Of a DNA stretch of 64,000 nucleotides, positions 457 to 56,678 are shown piece by piece. Source of the DNA: Trichobilharzia regenti (lineage: Eukaryota; Platyhelminthes; Trematoda; Strigeidida; Schistosomatidae). Numbering within the stretch: the first letter of the stretch is position 1; each line of letters begins with the position of its first letter. Made by a program: the position numbers and the translations under genes. The stretch spans positions 22,869,379 through 22,933,378 of the forward strand of contig OX235263.1 in NCBI GenBank assembly GCA_944472135.2. Reading direction: 5' to 3'. Under the pieces are notes generated by a model that saw nothing but the letters and a program-made list of their open reading frames with translations, searched no databases and was not told where the DNA came from.

Positions 457-3390
457 TTAAGGAGATAGGCCATTTGGATGCAGTCCTTGTATCGCTGCAT
501 GGTTGTCCAGCCTTCGCTTAAAGGCGTCCAAAGACGGTGCCATAGCTACATCTGCCGGTAAGGAATTCCAGGGACGACAAACCCGCAGTGAAAAGAAGTG
601 GGAGCGCACCCGGGTCCTTGCCCTCTGGTGAGCTATCCTTCTGGGATTTCCACGTGGAAGCCTATACCTACTCAATGGCAGAACACCTTTGTTTGGGTGA
701 TTCTGGTCATTTGTTATTTTGTAGGCAGTAATCAAATCCCCCCTAAGCCGACGGTAACTAAGTGTGAACAGGCCTAATTTCTTCAGCCTTTCATCATATG
801 GTTTGTTTCGGAGACCAACCACTCCTTTTGTTGCCCGTCGTTGGACTCTTTCCAAGAGGTTGGCATCTCTTCTCAGCATTGGGGGTGCAATAATATTATG
901 CACCTCAAGGTGTGGCCTGACGTATGTTTTGTACAACATTAGAAAGAGCTCAGGAGTGAGTGCACCTAACTGTCTATGCGTAAAGTGTATGACCGCATAT
1001 GCCCTCGCTACATCCCCTGTGTAATTTACGCTTGTGTCCATTTTTTCCGTTAGAACTAGACCTAAGTCGCGTTCCGACGTTGTGCAGGACAAGCTTTCAT
1101 TGCACAGGGTGTAACTTGCATTCTGCAGTCTACAGGTGCGCAACTTCACTACTTTGCACTTTTTCAAGTTGAAAGTCATGCCACTGGCCACCGCCCAGTC
1201 TTCCAGAAGGTTTAGGTCTTCCTGTAGCCTATCTGAGTCCTCCGGACACTTTATCGCCCTCCATATTTTTACGTCGTCAGCGTACAGGAGAGTCGGGCAG
1301 CTCAGACGGCGTGGTAGATCATTGATGAAAATCAAAAACATCAGTGGTCCTAGGATAGAACCCTGCGACACTCCTGATGACGATCTGTGCCAAGATGATC
1401 GGACTCGGTTAACCTTAGTGCAAAATTGCCTGTCGGCTAGGTAGTCCTTCAACCATGACAGAAGTGGCTCACCTATGCCTGCCTGTCTTATTTTATGTAG
1501 GAGAAGGTCATGGTGAACAGTGTCAAATGCCTTCTCAAAGTCTAGGAAGACCACATGGACTGGTACGTTCAAGTCCCAGCATGATGTCCAGTCGTCCCAA
1601 GCTGACAGTAGGTTAGTGACGCAGGATCTGCCTTTTCTGAAACCATGTTGGGCTTCATGTAGTATATTAGTCCTATCGAAATATTCCCTGATGTGGTCGT
1701 CAATAATACTTTCCAGTACTTTTGATACCACTGGGAGTAGAGCTACTGGTCTATAGCTAGCAGCGTTTTGCCTGTCCCCACCCTTGAAGATTGGAGAAAG
1801 GATGGCTCTTTTCCACTCCCTTGGCAGGGTCCCCGAATCCATTGAGTGTTGGAACAAGTCGCACAGGGGTCTACAGAGAGCCTCGGCGCACTGTTTCAGA
1901 ACAGATGGCCTGATGTCATCACAACCTGGGGACTTCCCAGGTATGAGTCGCTGTAGCTTCCTTAGTACTATTGCGGGGTTTATTTGGGGAGTAGTCGCTA
2001 GGTCTTCCTCCTCTGAAATAGTGGTGCCACCATTTTGGTCCGTAACTGTAATATCCACATTGCTGTTTAGCTGTTTAGCGAAGGCTGAACTGAATGTTTC
2101 AGCCATCTCCAGACTAGTGAGATATTGACCGTTTGGGCCTACTAAGGCGCATGCCCCTTGGTTTGTCGGTTTTCTTTCCGACATGAATCGGTACAAGTTT
2201 TTAGGGTTTGATAGGAGTTTTTTAGCAAGGTTAGCCTGGAATGACCTTCTGTCCCTCCTAACTCTTGCATTACACCGGTTCCTGAGTTCGAGGTATGCAT
2301 CATGGTCGGTCTGACTCTTAGATACACGCCACGTAAACCAAGCCTTCCGCTTTGCTTGCAGAATACGTTGCGTGCCTCTCTTCAACCATGACGTCTTTCT
2401 CTTAGGCTGTGTTGTGACTAAAGGGACGGTATCCGAGATTGCTGTATGGATAATCTTTTTTACCACTTCCCAGTGTTCATCCACAGATAGGTCGTCCCAT
2501 GCTAAGGGCCAGTCTGCGTCGGACAAGAGCCTCCGCATTTCAGCATAGTCAGCCTTGCTGTAGCACAGACATGGTCGCGTAACATCCCATTGCAAACGCT
2601 CACGGAGGACAAGATCGAAACCTATGACTGCATGGTCACTGCTTCCCAGAGGAGTCATGATCTGGACCTTTTCGACGAGTAGCTGGTCACTAGTTAGAAT
2701 ATAATCTAGTTTTGATGACTTTCCACTAGGGCCCCACCTAGTGTCGTCTCCAACATTCTCAGTCAGTCCCGTGTTTCGAATAGTTTGCAGTAGGTTTCGG
2801 CCAAATTTTCCCTTAGCACACCCGGAGCCAAGGTTCAGTGATGGAGCATTGAAATCTCCAGCTATGGTGATTTGGTCGTAGCCCAAATCTCGTATTCCTG
2901 TGATAGTGCTGAGCAGTAGCTGATTGTGCTCTGCCCCACAGGTGGGAGATCGGTAGATGCCACCCAGTAAGTGCTTGGTGTGGCCTACGGTGAAATGACA
3001 CCATATGGAGTCTGGGAGTTCGATAAGTGGTGGGTCCGTTGCGCGCACACATTTAAGTTGCCTATCAAAGTATATAGCAACTCCCCCTCCTTCCTTATTA
3101 TCCCTGTCTCTTCTGACCAGTACCATATCACCTATACTGATTTCATTGTCGGCGATAGTGGGGTTTAGCCACGTTTCAGTAAGAATGATTATTTTCAGTT
3201 GAAGGTGTGCTTGGAGATTTCGGAGTTCACCTACTTTCCCTCTCAGCCCCCTCACATTGCTATATAGGCAACTGACAGTGAGTCTAACAACCTCAGAGTG
3301 TTGTGGGGTAGTTGACGTGAAACCGTCTGCTGGTGGGGGACTTGATGTTGGAACTAGTTGGCCGATTCCGATAGAACCGGCCCGTTGTAG
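457..3390 (-). CDS. CR1-like ORF2: APE endonuclease-reverse transcriptase
   Basis: Nicks target DNA and copies the element RNA at the nick (target-primed reverse transcription, nucleus). Counting from the GTG at 3255: endonuclease at about residues 20-213 with ETWL (27-30), GDFN (133-136), LDYILTSD (183-190) and SDH (206-208); reverse transcriptase at about 435-720 with LDFEKAFD (571-578), SGVSQGS (627-633, usually GVPQGS) and catalytic YADD (658-661); then a C-terminal domain of about 200 residues. The frame is open upstream to a TGA at 3399-3397 but has no ATG there. The first in-frame ATG is at about residue 44, inside the endonuclease and past its catalytic glutamate. Translation therefore probably enters from ORF1 by a -1 frameshift at 3396-3390. 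All catalytic motifs are intact, so the protein may be active. Confidence 0.9.
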   Translation of the reverse strand, partial: LQRAGSIGIGQLVPTSSPPPADGFTSTTPQHSEVVRLTVSCLYSNVRGLRGKVGELRNLQAHLQLKIIILTETWLNPTIADNEISIGDMVLVRRDRDNKEGGGVAIYFDRQLKCVRATDPPLIELPDSIWCHFTVGHTKHLLGGIYRSPTCGAEHNQLLLSTITGIRDLGYDQITIAGDFNAPSLNLGSGCAKGKFGRNLLQTIRNTGLTENVGDDTRWGPSGKSSKLDYILTSDQLLVEKVQIMTPLGSSDHAVIGFDLVLRERLQWDVTRPCLCYSKADYAEMRRLLSDADWPLAWDDLSVDEHWEVVKKIIHTAISDTVPLVTTQPKRKTSWLKRGTQRILQAKRKAWFTWRVSKSQTDHDAYLELRNRCNARVRRDRRSFQANLAKKLLSNPKNLYRFMSERKPTNQGACALVGPNGQYLTSLEMAETFSSAFAKQLNSNVDITVTDQNGGTTISEEEDLATTPQINPAIVLRKLQRLIPGKSPGCDDIRPSVLKQCAEALCRPLCDLFQHSMDSGTLPREWKRAILSPIFKGGDRQNAASYRPVALLPVVSKVLESIIDDHIREYFDRTNILHEAQHGFRKGRSCVTNLLSAWDDWTSCWDLNVPVHVVFLDFEKAFDTVHHDLLLHKIRQAGIGEPLLSWLKDYLADRQFCTKVNRVRSSWHRSSSGVSQGSILGPLMFLIFINDLPRRLSCPTLLYADDVKIWRAIKCPEDSDRLQEDLNLLEDWAVASGMTFNLKKCKVVKLRTCRLQNASYTLCNESLSCTTSERDLGLVLTEKMDTSVNYTGDVARAYAVIHFTHRQLGALTPELFLMLYKTYVRPHLEVHNIIAPPMLRRDANLLERVQRRATKGVVGLRNKPYDERLKKLGLFTLSYRRLRGDLITAYKITNDQNHPNKGVLPLSRYRLPRGNPRRIAHQRARTRVRSHFFSLRVCRPWNSLPADVAMAPSLDAFKRRLDNHAAIQGLHPNGLSP

Positions 3391-3399
3391 TTTTTTTCA
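3354..3399 (-). promoter_or_regulatory. Predicted -1 ribosomal frameshift signal (ORF1 to ORF2)
   Basis: Minus sense. Slippery heptamer A AAA AAC at 3396-3390, in the correct phase for ORF1 (codons GAA AAA AAC). A 7-nt spacer (3389-3383) follows, then a 9-bp stem with arms 3382-3374 and 3368-3360, one G-U pair and a 5-nt loop (3373-3369). The ORF1 stop TAG (3356-3354) lies just past the stem. The ORF2 frame is exactly -1 relative to ORF1 and becomes open at the heptamer, because its last upstream stop, TGA, overlaps the slip site. Every element matches the classical retroviral and coronaviral -1 signal; function is inferred. Confidence 0.75.
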
Positions 3400-4487
3400 A
3401 TGGATTTAGGCAGGACACTTGGGAGACACAGACTATTATTCTCAGAGCTGCATCGCTCTAGTGTCACCGAAGCTTGGGGTCGTATTAAAGCCTCAGTTTG
3501 CTGCCTCCTTATATTTCTGGGTCTGCTTTCACAGCATCGGATGTGTCCTCCAATTTTTCCCTTGGTCTCATACCACCGTTGAAGTGATATGGACAACTGC
3601 TCCGGGGAGTTGAATGTGACACACAGCAGCTTTGGAGAGTTAATCAATGTTAGATGAGCGGGACGAGGTAGTCGGAAAATGGAGATGGCTCCAGAAGCGC
3701 CAGGGGCCATCTGAGATGACAGCCATCTCCATTGTTGTACGTCGTGCATGTGTTTTTCACAAGCAGTGCCGGTTTCCAGCTCCGGAACACCGTGTACCAC
3801 CATAGAGGTGGAAGGCATCAGTTCCGGTGACTCCCTCGCCATATTTCTGACGGCCCATGGTCTATCTTGCCGCGCTCTTATGTTAGAACTTCTGTCCAGG
3901 GCTAGTACCTGAGCCATTAACAGTACTTTTTCGGCCTCTTCGGCAGAGTCCAGTGTAACCCGTAATGGGGGTGGCTTACCCTGAGGCGTGTGGACACCCC
4001 TGTACAGTCTGCACAGTTTTGCTGAACTAATGTTCAGACCTAGTTTGCTGCACAGGTTGGACCACTGTTCCTGATCAAACAGGGCCCGTTGTTCGAGCAA
4101 GCTATCCGTGCTCACAGGTACGTTAAAGAGGATGAGAGAGTTAGACCGACTACCCTCAGACTTAGGTTTTGCCTTCGGCTTCTTGCAGTCCTTTGCATCA
4201 TTAGCAACATTAGGCTTCATCGGTACCTGGACAGCCTTTTTTGTGTTGCCAGGCTTGCTAGTGGATGCAAGTGGTGCCTTTGTAATTTTGCCTTCCCCTG
4301 ATGTGGATGGAACCTTGCTAATCTTCACCTTGTGAGAATTGGCATTTCCAGTCAGTAGGGCTGGTGTGTCCTTCTTTAAGTCTTTGACCAGTTTCGGCAG
4401 TGCGAGTTTAGCAGGGGGAGCTGCATGATACTGTGTTGGGGCACAAGAGCGTGTTATTTCTGCTATCCGCAGACACGCTTTGTGGGA
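3354..4487 (-). pseudogene. CR1-like ORF1, C-terminal part (after frame break)
   Basis: Open from just after a TAG at 4490 to the TAG at 3356-3354. A GTG at 4328 is the first start-like codon, but the frame is coding-like well upstream of it, so this is the continuation of the PHD-containing ORF1 and not a separate gene. The product is basic and Lys/Pro-rich at first, then contains a segment with LILFNVPVSTDS and two further alpha/beta-looking stretches, which may be RNA-binding folds as in other CR1 and jockey ORF1 proteins. ORF1 proteins bind element RNA and act as chaperones; that role is inferred. The 3' end overlaps the ORF2 frame and carries the frameshift signal. Confidence 0.7.
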
Positions 4488-4986
4488 CTATGCCAGGGCG
4501 ACAAAGTGGACACACGTACCAAAACCATGGGCATGGGTTATTTCTCATAAACTCATAGTATGCTTTCGGTACTTCTTTGTCACAACGGCAGTGCACCCAT
4601 CGTTTGCAAAAATTACATTCAAACGCTGAATCAGTTTTAGAAACTGTGATGCTGCACGCCTGGCATTCATCCCCTTTCCTTGATGACGCCTTCGAGGTCT
4701 TATGACGTCTTGAACGTTTCCTTTTAGGCTTGATGTGTTTCACACACTGGCCTACAGTTGATGCAGGTGTAGAATTCTGTCCTTCTGGTATTGCCTGTGC
4801 CGTTTCAGTACTAGACTGTGGCAATGCAGGCGTTGTATCAGGGCAGACTAAAGCTACACGAGTCTTTAGGATCGGTATGCGGGAAGGGGTTGAAATCCCT
4901 GGATTTTTTCCTTCCCTGGCTGAAGCCCTTGTGACTACAGAGTACGGTATTCTAGTGGCTTTTTTAAGGCTGCTTTCAACAACCAT
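4408..4986 (-). pseudogene. CR1-like ORF1, N-terminal part with PHD-type zinc finger
   Basis: Start chosen at the ATG at 4986; the frame also opens with a GTG at 4998. A Ser/Thr/Pro-rich N-terminus and a basic patch rich in Lys and Arg are followed by a C4HC3 PHD-like finger. Counting from the GTG, its ligands are C112, C115, C128, C131, H136, C139, C163 and C166. PHD fingers are a known feature of CR1-clade ORF1 proteins. The frame ends at 4408 after about 27 codons that no longer look like the family, and the following ORF1 part lies one base forward. A single-base indel between 4408 and 4487 would explain this, making this copy ORF1-defective unless it also shifts frame there. Confidence 0.75.
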
Positions 4987-4998
4987 ATTAACAATCAC

Positions 4999-7900
4999 TA
5001 TAAATTATGCTATGTACGTCTAAGAGAGCAACAGTTTCTAACCAAAAGAGCAAGAATAAGACTGAAAAAGTATAAGGCAAGGAAAAGAAAAGGTTTTCGA
5101 CTTTACCTAGTACTTTCTGAATGATCGGCTTCACGGCAATCACGTGGTAGACCAACAAGTCTTGTTTCTCTGAACGAGTGAGGAAGATGCTGCTACAAAA
5201 GTAGCACCTGAAGCTTTGGCAGTAGTTCGAGACAGCTGGACTTACCACACAGAGATTTACTATGTAAGTAATGGTTGAATTAAATTCACCGGCTAGGAAG
5301 ATCAGGTTTCCCAAACGGATAATTCACAGAATTGGTATTTTCCGGTTGGAGAGGAAAAAGCACGTCGTATTCAAGGAGCGCGCGCTAATCGAAGTCCATG
5401 AATTGTCGAGAATACTGTAGTAGGAAATAGGTTTTGAGTCTCTGTGTATCTTTTTATATCAAAATCATATTCCTGACTCGTTTGAGTTTATAGTGTATGA
5501 CGAAATAGTATGAACTTTAGGCATCGTCCTATGTTACAAGCTGGCAAAATGGCAAGGAAATCGTTGTCACTCTCCCTTGTTCAAAACAGAAAAGAAATTT
5601 TCGGCTCCCTAAGTCATTAGTCAAATGGAGAGTTAGTCCTATGCACAACTGCCATCTGAACTTACCCTAAGGCAACCTAGAAAAACCGGCCCTCAGGATG
5701 CGACTTCATAATTTAAGGGGACCTCAAAGTTCTGTGCATGGCGGACCTTTCGCTTTGTACAAACGAGCAGAAATCCCTATTCCTGTGTAGTGTACAGGAC
5801 TCCCTAGAAATGTATGGTTATTGTGCGTGCATATTAGGAAAACGGTTTCATATCAGTTTGTTTACTAGATATATCACAGTGAAACAGTATTATTTACTGG
5901 ATGACGTTACAAGCAAAATTTATTGTTCATAACCATATCGGTTTCGCTGAATGTCTCCATGCTCCTGGATAGTACTGATAGCTACGTGTTCACTTGGACA
6001 GTTGGGCACCAGTTGTTGTTTTAATCTAATTCAGGGACATCAAAACGCACTTGCATTGTCTGTGTGGGTGGATTCATTCGGCTTTGTCCAGATATTCATT
6101 CTAGTTGTGTAGAAGAATGTGAAAGTTTTCGGACCACTCTAATCTCATAATATATAAGGGGAAAAAGCAACTCGTAAACTTCGCGATCTTTGTCGTGCAT
6201 TTCTGTTTCTTGCGTAAAACAATTGAAGGACGATTAATGAATCATCCCTCATTGAAACAAAGCTATCCGGTCCAGTTCAGTGATTCAAACTTCTTGTTTT
6301 CATAACCAATACACTATCATGCAGTTAACTGATTGAATAATGACGACTGGTTTATCCCTCAGCCTGAGAACTGATTTCAAATTATCGTTTCTAATGTAGT
6401 TGAAGATTAAACGATCGATTCATGGTTGTTTGCTCAAACCCAACTCCTCCATACTTTTCCCGGGAGTCATCCATCCTTCAGTCATCACCTCATCGTTCGC
6501 TGTTCGTTGGAAGAGAGAAAACTATCAAAAGCATTATTGTGATTTATTATCATAACATTTATTCTAAGACTTTGTGTGCAATAACCTAATGGTTGGCTCT
6601 GTATTGGTGAAAGACTAAGCGGTTCTTGAGTCACCAATATGCGTTTTTGTTTTTCGTGTTAATTATTACGCATAGTTTCTGAAAGTCTTCCAAGGACAGC
6701 GTGAGGTCCTGTGCAGTGGGACCTGGACATTATCAATCGTTCTACCCAATTTTTGGGTCTGGGTTACTTTCCTTATGTATACAAAAGTAGCCCTTTTCAG
6801 ATAGCCGAGATTGAACTCTAATGAGTTCCAAATGCTGACTTTGCCGTTAAAATTAGAGATAAAAGAATACAACACTAATGCGAACATCTCCAGAAAGCTT
6901 GTCAGTAGATAGTGTTTCACTGCCCGCCTGTGGGATAAGAAACCAACTGTGTGGTTTGAGATCGGTCATTTTGACACTACAGTCGCGACAATTTCGAGCG
7001 TCACTGGCTGTCTTAGTTTTGAAGAAGTATTGTAATCGGTCGGTTACACGTGCTCTTATCACACACGAAAGAATTGATATGTCGATGCATTTGTTTGCTG
7101 AATTCAGTGAATTCGTTTAACAGCAAAGTCTAGTGGTTTAGCACGAGTATACTGAATGTCTTGAAGAAACGATGCATTCGTGTAACTCCGCTTATTGCCT
7201 GACTATTATGTTAAGCTAGCCGATAGCTTGCATAGAACAACGCAGTTGATCTAGCAGTTGTTCACCGATATGTTGGGCTGACTGCTTTAGTCCTGTTGGT
7301 CGTCGAAGAAATTCGGAAAGCATGCGTTGATAGAAATCATCGTGAGAAATGCAAAGCAAGTGGACGTCATGTTTTAGGTCGAAGTACACAGGGCGTCAGT
7401 TCACCCTCATTATTAAACTTGAATTCGGAAAACATAAATTAGTTCAGTTCATCAGCGTTGTACATAACTGTGTTGACAGGGTGGCTACCTATGTGTGTGT
7501 GGAGCCACATGTCCGACCACCCACTCGTGAACAGCCCCTGTGAGTGTGATCTTTAATCGTGCGGAACAAACATTTGGCACAAAAACCAGCGCAGTGGACG
7601 TCGGATTTGAGGAGCACGTGACCTTAGATGGCTATCGGAATTTTCCTGGAATTCTGAGTTCTAGTAAATGATCTTAGTGATGATGTTGGTTTGTTGGCGG
7701 CAACCGGCAAGTGGCTTTGTACCTACGTTTCGTGCTAGCTGAAGCTCATCAGTGAGGCGTATCAGAAACCATTTTTAATTTATTGAGTAAAAAATTTACA
7801 TTCTAACAGGTTTGACATGCACTTTAACCTATATGGATTTCTTAATATATTCAGGAAAGTATGAGTTAGGTGATTGCATTTATATGAACGTTGATCAATA

Positions 7901-52828: not shown

Positions 52829-53794
52829 TTGACACAAACAGGATCCTGGGCAAAGAGTTGGTTGCATTCCTACTTTTCTGATAGAATGCAGTATAGTGTA
52901 TATAACGGCAAATCTTCTTCTAACTCGCTTACAAAATCCGGTGTTCCGCAAGGTGCTGTACTCTCTCCTTTTCTTTTTTCTTTCTTCCTACATGACCTAC
53001 CTCATTCAAACGAAACTAACTTTGTCAAATATGCAGATGATCTGACTGTATCACTGCCTATCACTTCCGAGTCTGACAGCTCCAAACTTAATAGCTTTCT
53101 GTTGGACATCAACAACTGGTCCAAGTCAAATGGTCTTATATTAAATCCTTCCAAATGTCAGGCAGTTGACTTTACTTTCAAGCATCGACGTGACTTACTT
53201 GAACTAGTTAGCTTGCATGATCCCTGTAGCATAGATGGCACGGAAATTGAAACCATGTCAAGCATTAAATACCTTGGATTAGTTCTTTCCTCTGACCTTT
53301 CATGGTCATCACACATCTTATCTATCTCTAAGAAAATGTTTCGTCTTACCTTCTACATTAAAAAGTTAAGACAATCAGGTATCAACCAACCTTTAGTTTT
53401 GCAATTTTTAAACTCCTGTATTTTACCTATTGTACTCTATTGCTCTCCATTAATCTTTCCTGGGCTTCTCAAAAAAGATTATATCATATTACGAAGGGTA
53501 TTAAATGCTGTGAGTAGGGCTTGTGGTCTGCCACTGCATGAGCTCGCTAATACTATAGTCGAGAGGCATATAAATTCCTGTACGAAATGGGAAAAGGCTA
53601 TACTGTCAGACCCTCTGCACGCCCTTTATTCACACCTGTCCCCTTGTATCTCATCAGGTAGGACGAGAAGTCAATATAAGAAAGTATATGCTCGTACCAC
53701 TAAGTACAGAAATTCTACAATACCCTATTTAGCGCGTACTTTATGTGACGAAGACTCTGTTAGACGTGAAACTTACAAGTTACTATGTAATTAG
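52829..53794 (+). pseudogene. 5'-truncated non-LTR reverse transcriptase
   Basis: 321 codons open, starting within the RT palm: SGVPQGAVLSPFLFSFFLHD (motif B), FVKYADDLTVSLP (catalytic YADD), KSNGLILNPSKC, SSIKYLGLVLSSDLSW, then the C-terminal region of CR1/jockey type to the stop at 53794. Motif A and everything upstream (endonuclease, ORF1) are missing, the usual 5' truncation of a copy whose reverse transcription stopped early. The frame is undamaged, so the insertion is recent. It is followed by a 3' untranslated region and a TTA tail. Confidence 0.85.
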
Positions 53795-55559: not shown

Positions 55560-56460
55560 TCAACTTAAGATAGAATCAACTCGAAACTCTCCTCTTGAAT
55601 AGCAGTGCGTAGCGGAGTCCCACAAGGCTCGGTACTCGGACCTCTCCTATTTATTTTGTACATCAATGAGTTATCTCTGCTCACCGACTCCCCTATGCTC
55701 CTTTACGCAGATGACTTAAAAATTTGGAGACAGCTGAATGGCAAAAGTGATACGTTCACGTTGCAAGAGGACCTCAACAAATTGTCAGAGTGGTCCATAG
55801 AATGTGCAACCATGCACATTGGACAAGAAGGCATAAGCTCCTACGAACTAGAGGGAATAACGCTTCCATCAGTTCAGACTCACCTGGACTTGGGTGTCAT
55901 ATTTAGCCACAATTTAAAAACTACAGCACACTGTCGCGCGGTGGTTGCACGTAGTTTCAGATTCTTATGGGCGATTCACAGAGCCTTTACTAGAACCATC
56001 AGAGATATGTTACCTCCTTATATACATCTCTGGTGAGATCAAGACTCGAAAACTGCATCCAGGCCGCCAGTCCTTGTCTAAAAGGGGACTCCTACATTTT
56101 ACAAAGGGTTCAAAGGAAGGCAACACGTATGGTTCTCGACATGACTAATTTATCATACGAGGAAAGACTAGACAGTTTAAATCTCTTCTCCCTGTCATAC
56201 AGTAGGCAGAGAGGAGATTTAATCACAGTGTTTAAAATTTTAAATAATGATTATGCACCTGACCTATTCTCTTTTTTCATTCCCGTCAGGTCGGAACACC
56301 TTAGAGGACACAGCAGGACAGTTCAAAAGCAAAGAAGAAATCATCACATTGCTGCTGAGTACTGGTTGTCGCACCGAGTCATAAACTCTTGAAACCGACT
56401 CCCAGAAGAAGTGGTGTCTGCAACCTTAACTGATTCATTCAAGAAGGGTTTGTAAAACCA
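55560..56460 (+). pseudogene. CR1-like reverse transcriptase fragment, broken
   Basis: 5'-truncated: SGVPQGSVLGPLLFILYINE (motif B) and LLYADDLKIWRQL (catalytic YADD), relatives of the element at 457-3390. A short internal deletion follows the SEWSIEC segment, where the usual K-C motif is missing. A stop at 56034-56036 ends the first frame, and the C-terminal part resumes in another frame: YILQRVQRKATRMV, YEERLDSLNLFSL, RQRGDLITVFKILN. A last stop sits at 56390. Inactive. Confidence 0.75.
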
Positions 56461-56678
56461 CAGAAATTTACTAGAAAAGGATTAACATAGGCTCCAAGCC
56501 TTCTATCCTCAACCAATAAATCTGAATCTTCATGACAGAAAACCAGAGCATTGCTCAAAGGTTATCAAGGAATAGTATGGCGGCCTATTTAAAACTTGGG
56601 CTACCGAAAGACTTCTCTGATACAGTTTGTTTAAATCTTTTAAAATATGACCTCTAATAGTGTTAATGTCAGTGATAG

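Follow-up and report, generated by a model that had tools for sequence, protein, structure and literature searches.

Sequence features suggesting −1 programmed ribosomal frameshifting at the ORF1–ORF2 junction of a CR1-like LINE in the bird schistosome Trichobilharzia regenti

Introduction

At the −1 frameshift sites of retroviruses and coronaviruses, a slippery heptamer such as A_AAA_AAC is followed by a spacer of 5–9 nt and a stable 3′ structure, and the polymerase ORF lies in the −1 frame (available part of PMC5009743). According to the same part of this source, A_AAA_AAC belongs to the sites on which mammalian ribosomes shift most readily, 5–9 nt is the much-studied spacer length, and HeT-A gag is an example of frameshifting in a non-LTR element. 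The fluke junction described here is built in the same way as the viral sites, but its signal is a simple hairpin as judged by a nested fold, and its carrier is a LINE.

For TRE5-A and TRE3-A of Dictyostelium, ORF2 is likewise stated to need a −1 frameshift. Their host is unrelated to flukes, however, a heptamer or hairpin is not described for them in the available part of PMC5911963, and the fluke ORF1 differs from theirs in being PHD-like. Non-LTR elements of Paramecium also have ORF2 in another frame, and recoding has been suggested for them, but in the form of +1 frameshifting, reinitiation or read-through (available part of PMC5405496). The CR1/L2 LINEs with a PHD-type ORF1 (Metcalfe and Casane 2014) share with the fluke element an ORF2 encoding endonuclease and reverse transcriptase (EN-RT) and a PHD-like N-terminal ORF1, whereas the word ‘frameshift’ occurs 0 times in the available text of PMC4120745. 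The word is also absent from the available parts of PMC2881922, PMC8392823 and PMC11203168.

In the literature searched, outside which most subscription papers lay, no −1 frameshift site was recognised for any LINE of the CR1 clade or of schistosomes. The mechanism is known and has been proposed for non-LTR elements before; a heptamer–hairpin signal in the fluke CR1-like lineage appears to be undescribed in the searchable literature. In many families of two-ORF LINEs it is not settled how the second protein is expressed; an abundant bird-schistosome element with a compact, conserved signal of the retroviral type allows this to be tested directly.

Results

Layout of the junction

Here ‘the window’ refers to the whole stretch of T. 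regenti DNA that was analysed, 64,000 nucleotides long. A two-ORF LINE lies on the minus strand in its first 5 kb. The features of the element, in window coordinates and in the order of its transcription, are the following.

4408..5004, minus strand: N-terminal, PHD-like part of ORF1, in a different frame in the window copy
3354..4487, minus strand: C-terminal part of ORF1, 377 codons open, with relatives in other flukes
3397..3399, minus strand: TGA closing the −1 frame directly 5′ of the heptamer (sequence reading)
3390..3396, minus strand: slippery heptamer A AAA AAC in ORF1 phase, context GA[A AAA AAC] (sequence reading)
3383..3389, minus strand: 7-nt spacer TACAACG (sequence reading)
3374..3382, minus strand: 5′ arm of the stem, GGCCGGTTC (sequence reading and fold)
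3369..3373, minus strand: 5-nt loop TATCG, which differs between families (sequence reading)
3360..3368, minus strand: 3′ arm of the stem, GAATCGGCC (sequence reading and fold)
3354..3356, minus strand: ORF1 stop codon TAG (sequence reading)
457..3396, minus strand: ORF2 in the −1 frame, with endonuclease and reverse transcriptase (PF03372, PF14529, PF00078)
3124..3126, minus strand: earliest ATG in the ORF2 frame, 3′ of the SNVRG and TETW motifs (sequence reading)

A preliminary description of this locus had placed a heptamer, spacer, hairpin and ORF1 stop here, and direct reading of the minus strand bears this placement out. The heptamer follows the X XXY YYZ rule in zero-frame phase, the spacer falls within 5–9 nt, and the stable 3′ structure is a 9-bp stem at 3382-3360 that includes one G-U pair, with 3 nt between the base of the stem and the ORF1 stop. 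The same description had ORF2 opening at the heptamer in the −1 frame and lacking an ATG before its endonuclease motif. Indeed, the −1 frame is closed by the TGA at 3399-3397 and open from 3396 to 457 (979 aa), and its first ATG (3126-3124) comes only after SNVRG and TETW, which we take to be endonuclease motifs. The downstream ORF is thus open from the heptamer and has no AUG of its own for the whole domain.

ORF2 matches the profiles PF03372 (3.5e-12), PF14529 (7.5e-12) and PF00078 (8.1e-35), and so combines an APE-type endonuclease with a reverse transcriptase as a CR1-like LINE does. In the ORF1 parts of the window, a PHD domain was not matched even at E 1, and there was a weak match to C1_1 (E 0.033); a distant ORF1 relative, P0018, matches PF00628 at 1.2e-4, which is below the curated cut-off. 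By domain content, EN and RT together with a seemingly PHD-like ORF1, the CR1-like label fits.

Fold and chance expectation

When the codons of the ORF1 part were shuffled synonymously 20,000 times, 5,736 of the shuffles produced an in-phase heptamer within the last 60 nt, so the heptamer alone is unremarkable. A heptamer with an equally strong hairpin 5–9 nt behind it was produced by 1 of the 20,000. When slightly different windows were used for the shuffles, the corresponding fractions were 0.289 and 5e-5. The junction fold of −16.5 kcal/mol is the best among the 35-nt windows of the element, and the 101-nt nested fold reaches −24.1 kcal/mol with a z of −3.30.

Copies of the window's own family

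The host assembly (954 Mb) was searched with a 301-bp probe of the window's family (family A), which gave 1241 first-look candidates; the best 40 of these 1241 were scored, and all 40 were at 100%. Thirty loci chosen by identity, all on contig C1 (L001-L030), served as the sample. Positions 3399-3350 are identical in 30/30, and 24/30 have at most 16 aligned differences from the window over 3.3 kb; family A is too young for testing conservation.

ORF1 is split in most of these copies. Its PHD-like part and the rest are in different frames in 25/30, of which 21 share one register and 4 have a different one; a further 3 are in register with ORF1 otherwise interrupted, and the motif was not found in the remaining 2. 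None of the 30 sampled copies has ORF1 open over 480 codons, and the window copy is broken too, its two ORF1 parts overlapping at 4408-4487 in different frames. In copies split in this way, ribosomes that begin at the start of ORF1 need a further event to arrive at the heptamer. The ORF1 linker contains a homopolymer that occurs in three lengths across 28 of the 30 loci. Behind the split and the homopolymer variation there may be genuine decay that trans-mobilisation has spread, as from a broken master copy, or an assembly miscount. ORF1 can be a single frame, as it is in family-B copies (below) and in two family-A copies with open frames of 549 and 550 aa, which are among the places given by a search with the Schistosoma turkestanicum protein P0012 (best 85 of 2638 candidates).

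Conservation across families

Family B was found by the protein pattern PVPxESAN, in which part of the stem is assumed and third positions are unconstrained. The pattern matched 461 places, and its reversed control 0. Thirty pattern loci were fetched, all on contig C1, of which 24 belong to family B. The ORF1 of this family is 99.4% identical to the T. regenti protein P0011, which in turn has 58% identity with the ORF1 part of the window over 84% of the latter. ORF1 (at least 480 codons) and ORF2 (at least 380) are both open in 5 of the 24 scored copies.

The junction of family B reads GAA AAA AAC GCC AAC AGG CCG GTT CCT GGG GAA TCG GCC AAC TAG. The heptamer, the spacer length of 7 nt, the stem, the TAG and the −1 ORF2 are the same as in family A, while spacer and loop bases differ. 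The hairpin energy is −16.2 kcal/mol in family A and −18.0 kcal/mol in family B. When the window is compared with the family-B copy L034, heptamer and stem are identical at 25/25 positions, as against 5/12 in spacer and loop and 71/113 in the flanks (Fisher p 3.8e-5). In the last 15 ORF1 codons, all 10 sense codons with identical amino acids keep the same codon, as does the stop. Elsewhere, the codon is retained in 69/168 cases further upstream in ORF1, and in ORF2 the figure is 42% of 227. The difference between the junction and upstream ORF1 has a binomial probability of 1.4e-4 without the stop and 5.6e-5 with it.

The search with P0012 gave, among the best 85 of 2638 candidates, 83 places with open frames of 524-572 aa, nearly all of 567, several of them being known family-B loci. 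Six further junctions from these places (two of family A, four of family B) have heptamer and stem unchanged. ORF1 is out of phase in L071 and L072 through an upstream break, and L069 has an early stop in ORF2.

A query that stops short of the heptamer on its 5′ side yielded a third family (L105, with L106 alike at the junction). Over the 171 nt that were read, L105 stays in phase, and its heptamer and stem are identical at 25/25 positions to those of family A (p 6.4e-4) and of family B (p 6.8e-5). The A-run has seven As in families A and B, and six in L105; the spacers across the families are TACAACG, GCCAACA and GACAACA. Conservation at the nucleotide level is thus found across three families of one genome, with statistics that rest on few independent lineages. 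Part of the constraint at the junction may come from dual coding, with these bases also serving as codons of the −1 frame, but this would itself require translation of the −1 frame there.

In the preliminary description, an early ORF2 ATG, a different frame relation or a broken heptamer in other copies was to count against frameshifting. An ATG before TETW in the −1 frame occurs in 0/29 family-A copies with readable TETW (30 scored) and in 0/16 such family-B copies (24 scored), and the frame relation is the same between the families. The heptamer is intact in 30/30 family-A and 24/24 family-B copies, all of them selected by sequence that includes or borders it, but 3/24 of family B (L040, L052 and L056) lack one A, so that heptamer and ORF1 are no longer in the same phase.

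Older junctions and covariation

A query independent of the signal gave 40 matches, and 38 junctions were fetched. AAAAAAC is kept in 26 of the 38, with one base fewer just upstream in 18 of these 26, and the exact stem is kept in 11/38. Most of the 38 junctions look like old, broken copies. In a set of 13 non-redundant junctions (A, B, L062 and ten signal-independent ones), mean pairwise identity is 0.855 in the heptamer and 0.796 and 0.877 in the 5′ and 3′ stem arms, compared with 0.734 in the spacer, 0.549 in the loop, 0.742 upstream and 0.691 downstream; the value of the 5′ arm is only slightly higher than its surroundings.

Pairs were counted with L109 (no junction) and L112 (stem deletion) left out. 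In 18 distinct junctions, 90.7% of cells are paired, a level reached by 48/500 shuffles, and 2 pairs are changed on both sides, which 84/500 shuffles also reach. The covariation score is reached by 34/500. The preliminary description had looked for heptamer, spacer and stem to be conserved with compensatory changes. The diverged families do share heptamer and stem, with spacer length kept, which agrees with this, but compensatory changes are few and not significant.

Some double changes did not stand. L111 was dropped as a compensatory change, the pair count giving a one-sided U-G and a mismatch. The double change in L084, which comes with a P0012-like S-to-L, was not accepted as family-wide, being in a single copy whose nearest listed kin is 82% alike. 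Nor was the L077-type double change accepted (12 copies, one shared junction), as these copies leave the element right behind the stem. The twelve copies (L077-L081, L086-L089, L091, L092 and L101, on C385, C8, C356 and C1) have one common 33-nt junction and several lie close together; by their sequence they resemble an amplified chimeric fragment.

Two older copies, L037 and L058, start 3 nt or less from the hairpin base. The ends look as if reverse transcription had stopped at the stem, although in a sample picked by the hairpin this may be bias.

The ORF2 frame before its first ATG

From the ORF1 stop to the first ORF2 ATG there are 76 codons, for which comparison of families A and B gives a dN of 0.227 and a dS of 1.01. 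Amino-acid identity is 67% in the −1 frame, versus 40% and 37% in the other frames, which have 6 to 12 stops across the same codons. In family A as in family B, SNVRG and TETW precede the first in-frame ATG of ORF2. This stretch is under purifying selection in the −1 frame, and the ORF2 product therefore very probably starts upstream of any ATG.

Relatives in other flukes

The C-termini of P0010, of P0011 (T. regenti) and of P0012 (S. turkestanicum) follow ...KNxxRPVPxE(S/L)A(N/D), P0012 being two residues longer. P0018, which is 30% identical, ends in ...SKNFNGPTHMSA. K-N is 9 to 13 residues from the end in P0010, P0011, P0012 and P0018, and the residues that precede it vary. The C-terminus of P0014 (29% identical) is without K-N, which speaks against the signal being universal. 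Four others, P0013 and P0015–P0017, stop short of the homologous end and are uninformative on K-N. The heptamers of P0001, P0010, P0012 and P0018 are deduced from residues only. When viral contigs and genome contigs were scanned with ORF1 and ORF2, no relative was found in the DNA of other species.

Discussion

We consider it likely, on the comparison of sequences, that the EN-RT of this CR1-like LINE is expressed by −1 programmed ribosomal frameshifting as an ORF1–ORF2 fusion. The GC-rich hairpin would hold up ribosomes on ORF1 while their two tRNAs occupy AAA and AAC. Some of these ribosomes would slip one base back onto AAA AAA, enter ORF2 and make the fusion, and the remaining ones would terminate shortly after the stem, at the stop codon of ORF1. 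The claim of the preliminary description that the reverse transcriptase is made as such a fusion is supported by the diverged families, which keep heptamer, stem and frame relation while spacer and loop change. From these features we infer that slippage occurs and, at some efficiency, yields the fusion protein; the fusion would then stand in a fixed ratio to ORF1, as was also proposed.

ORF2 could instead be made as a separate protein, by termination–reinitiation at the ORF1 stop or by non-AUG initiation, with the hairpin assisting and the A-run incidental. Only 3 nt separate the stem from the ORF1 stop, as would suit this course. The available part of PMC5009743 judges an unusual, AUG-independent initiation likelier than bypassing in mammalian LINEs, and in Zorro3 the ORFs are separate and the element depends on its first ORF2 ATG (available part of PMC1965478). 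In both fluke families, however, the first in-frame ATG comes too late, after SNVRG and TETW, and a separate ORF2 product predicts neither the conservation of the heptamer between families nor K-N in the relatives, so that we regard it as unlikely.

The extra base could also come from the polymerase, which by slipping on the run of A6-A7 would yield a transcript with one extra A, a fusion mRNA, with no slippage of ribosomes. Seven consecutive As in families A and B and a run length that varies in older copies are what such slippage would favour, but it leaves unexplained an invariant stem exactly 7 nt downstream, and the run of L105 has only six As; we hold this to be very unlikely. That the junctions are alike merely through a short gene-conversion or template-switch tract, or by chance, and without function, seems to us scarcely credible. 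The families do share one genome and the tract is short, yet the differences within it are confined to spacer and loop, and the same residues occur in ORF1 proteins assigned to other flukes.

If the frameshifting reading is true, a LINE lineage has converged on the retroviral strategy of a Gag-Pol ratio, and a specific fusion protein can be named as a target in fluke proteomes. A wider reading is that a fluke CR1-like LINE lineage has a Gag / Gag-Pol economy, with the reverse transcriptase as a low-ratio ORF1 fusion and a signal older than the Trichobilharzia–Schistosoma split. The age would follow from K-N and stem residues in P0012 of S. turkestanicum and from K-N in P0018. For this wider reading as a whole, we see the case for and against as evenly balanced.

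Two observations concern the surroundings of the element. On the plus strand, 52856-53521 and 55641-56461 are fragments of other LINEs, 27 to 41% identical to the ORF2 of the element. At 199-372, 3′ of ORF2, there are ATT/ATA-type microsatellite stretches that resemble others in the window and are possibly part of the 3′ region of the element.
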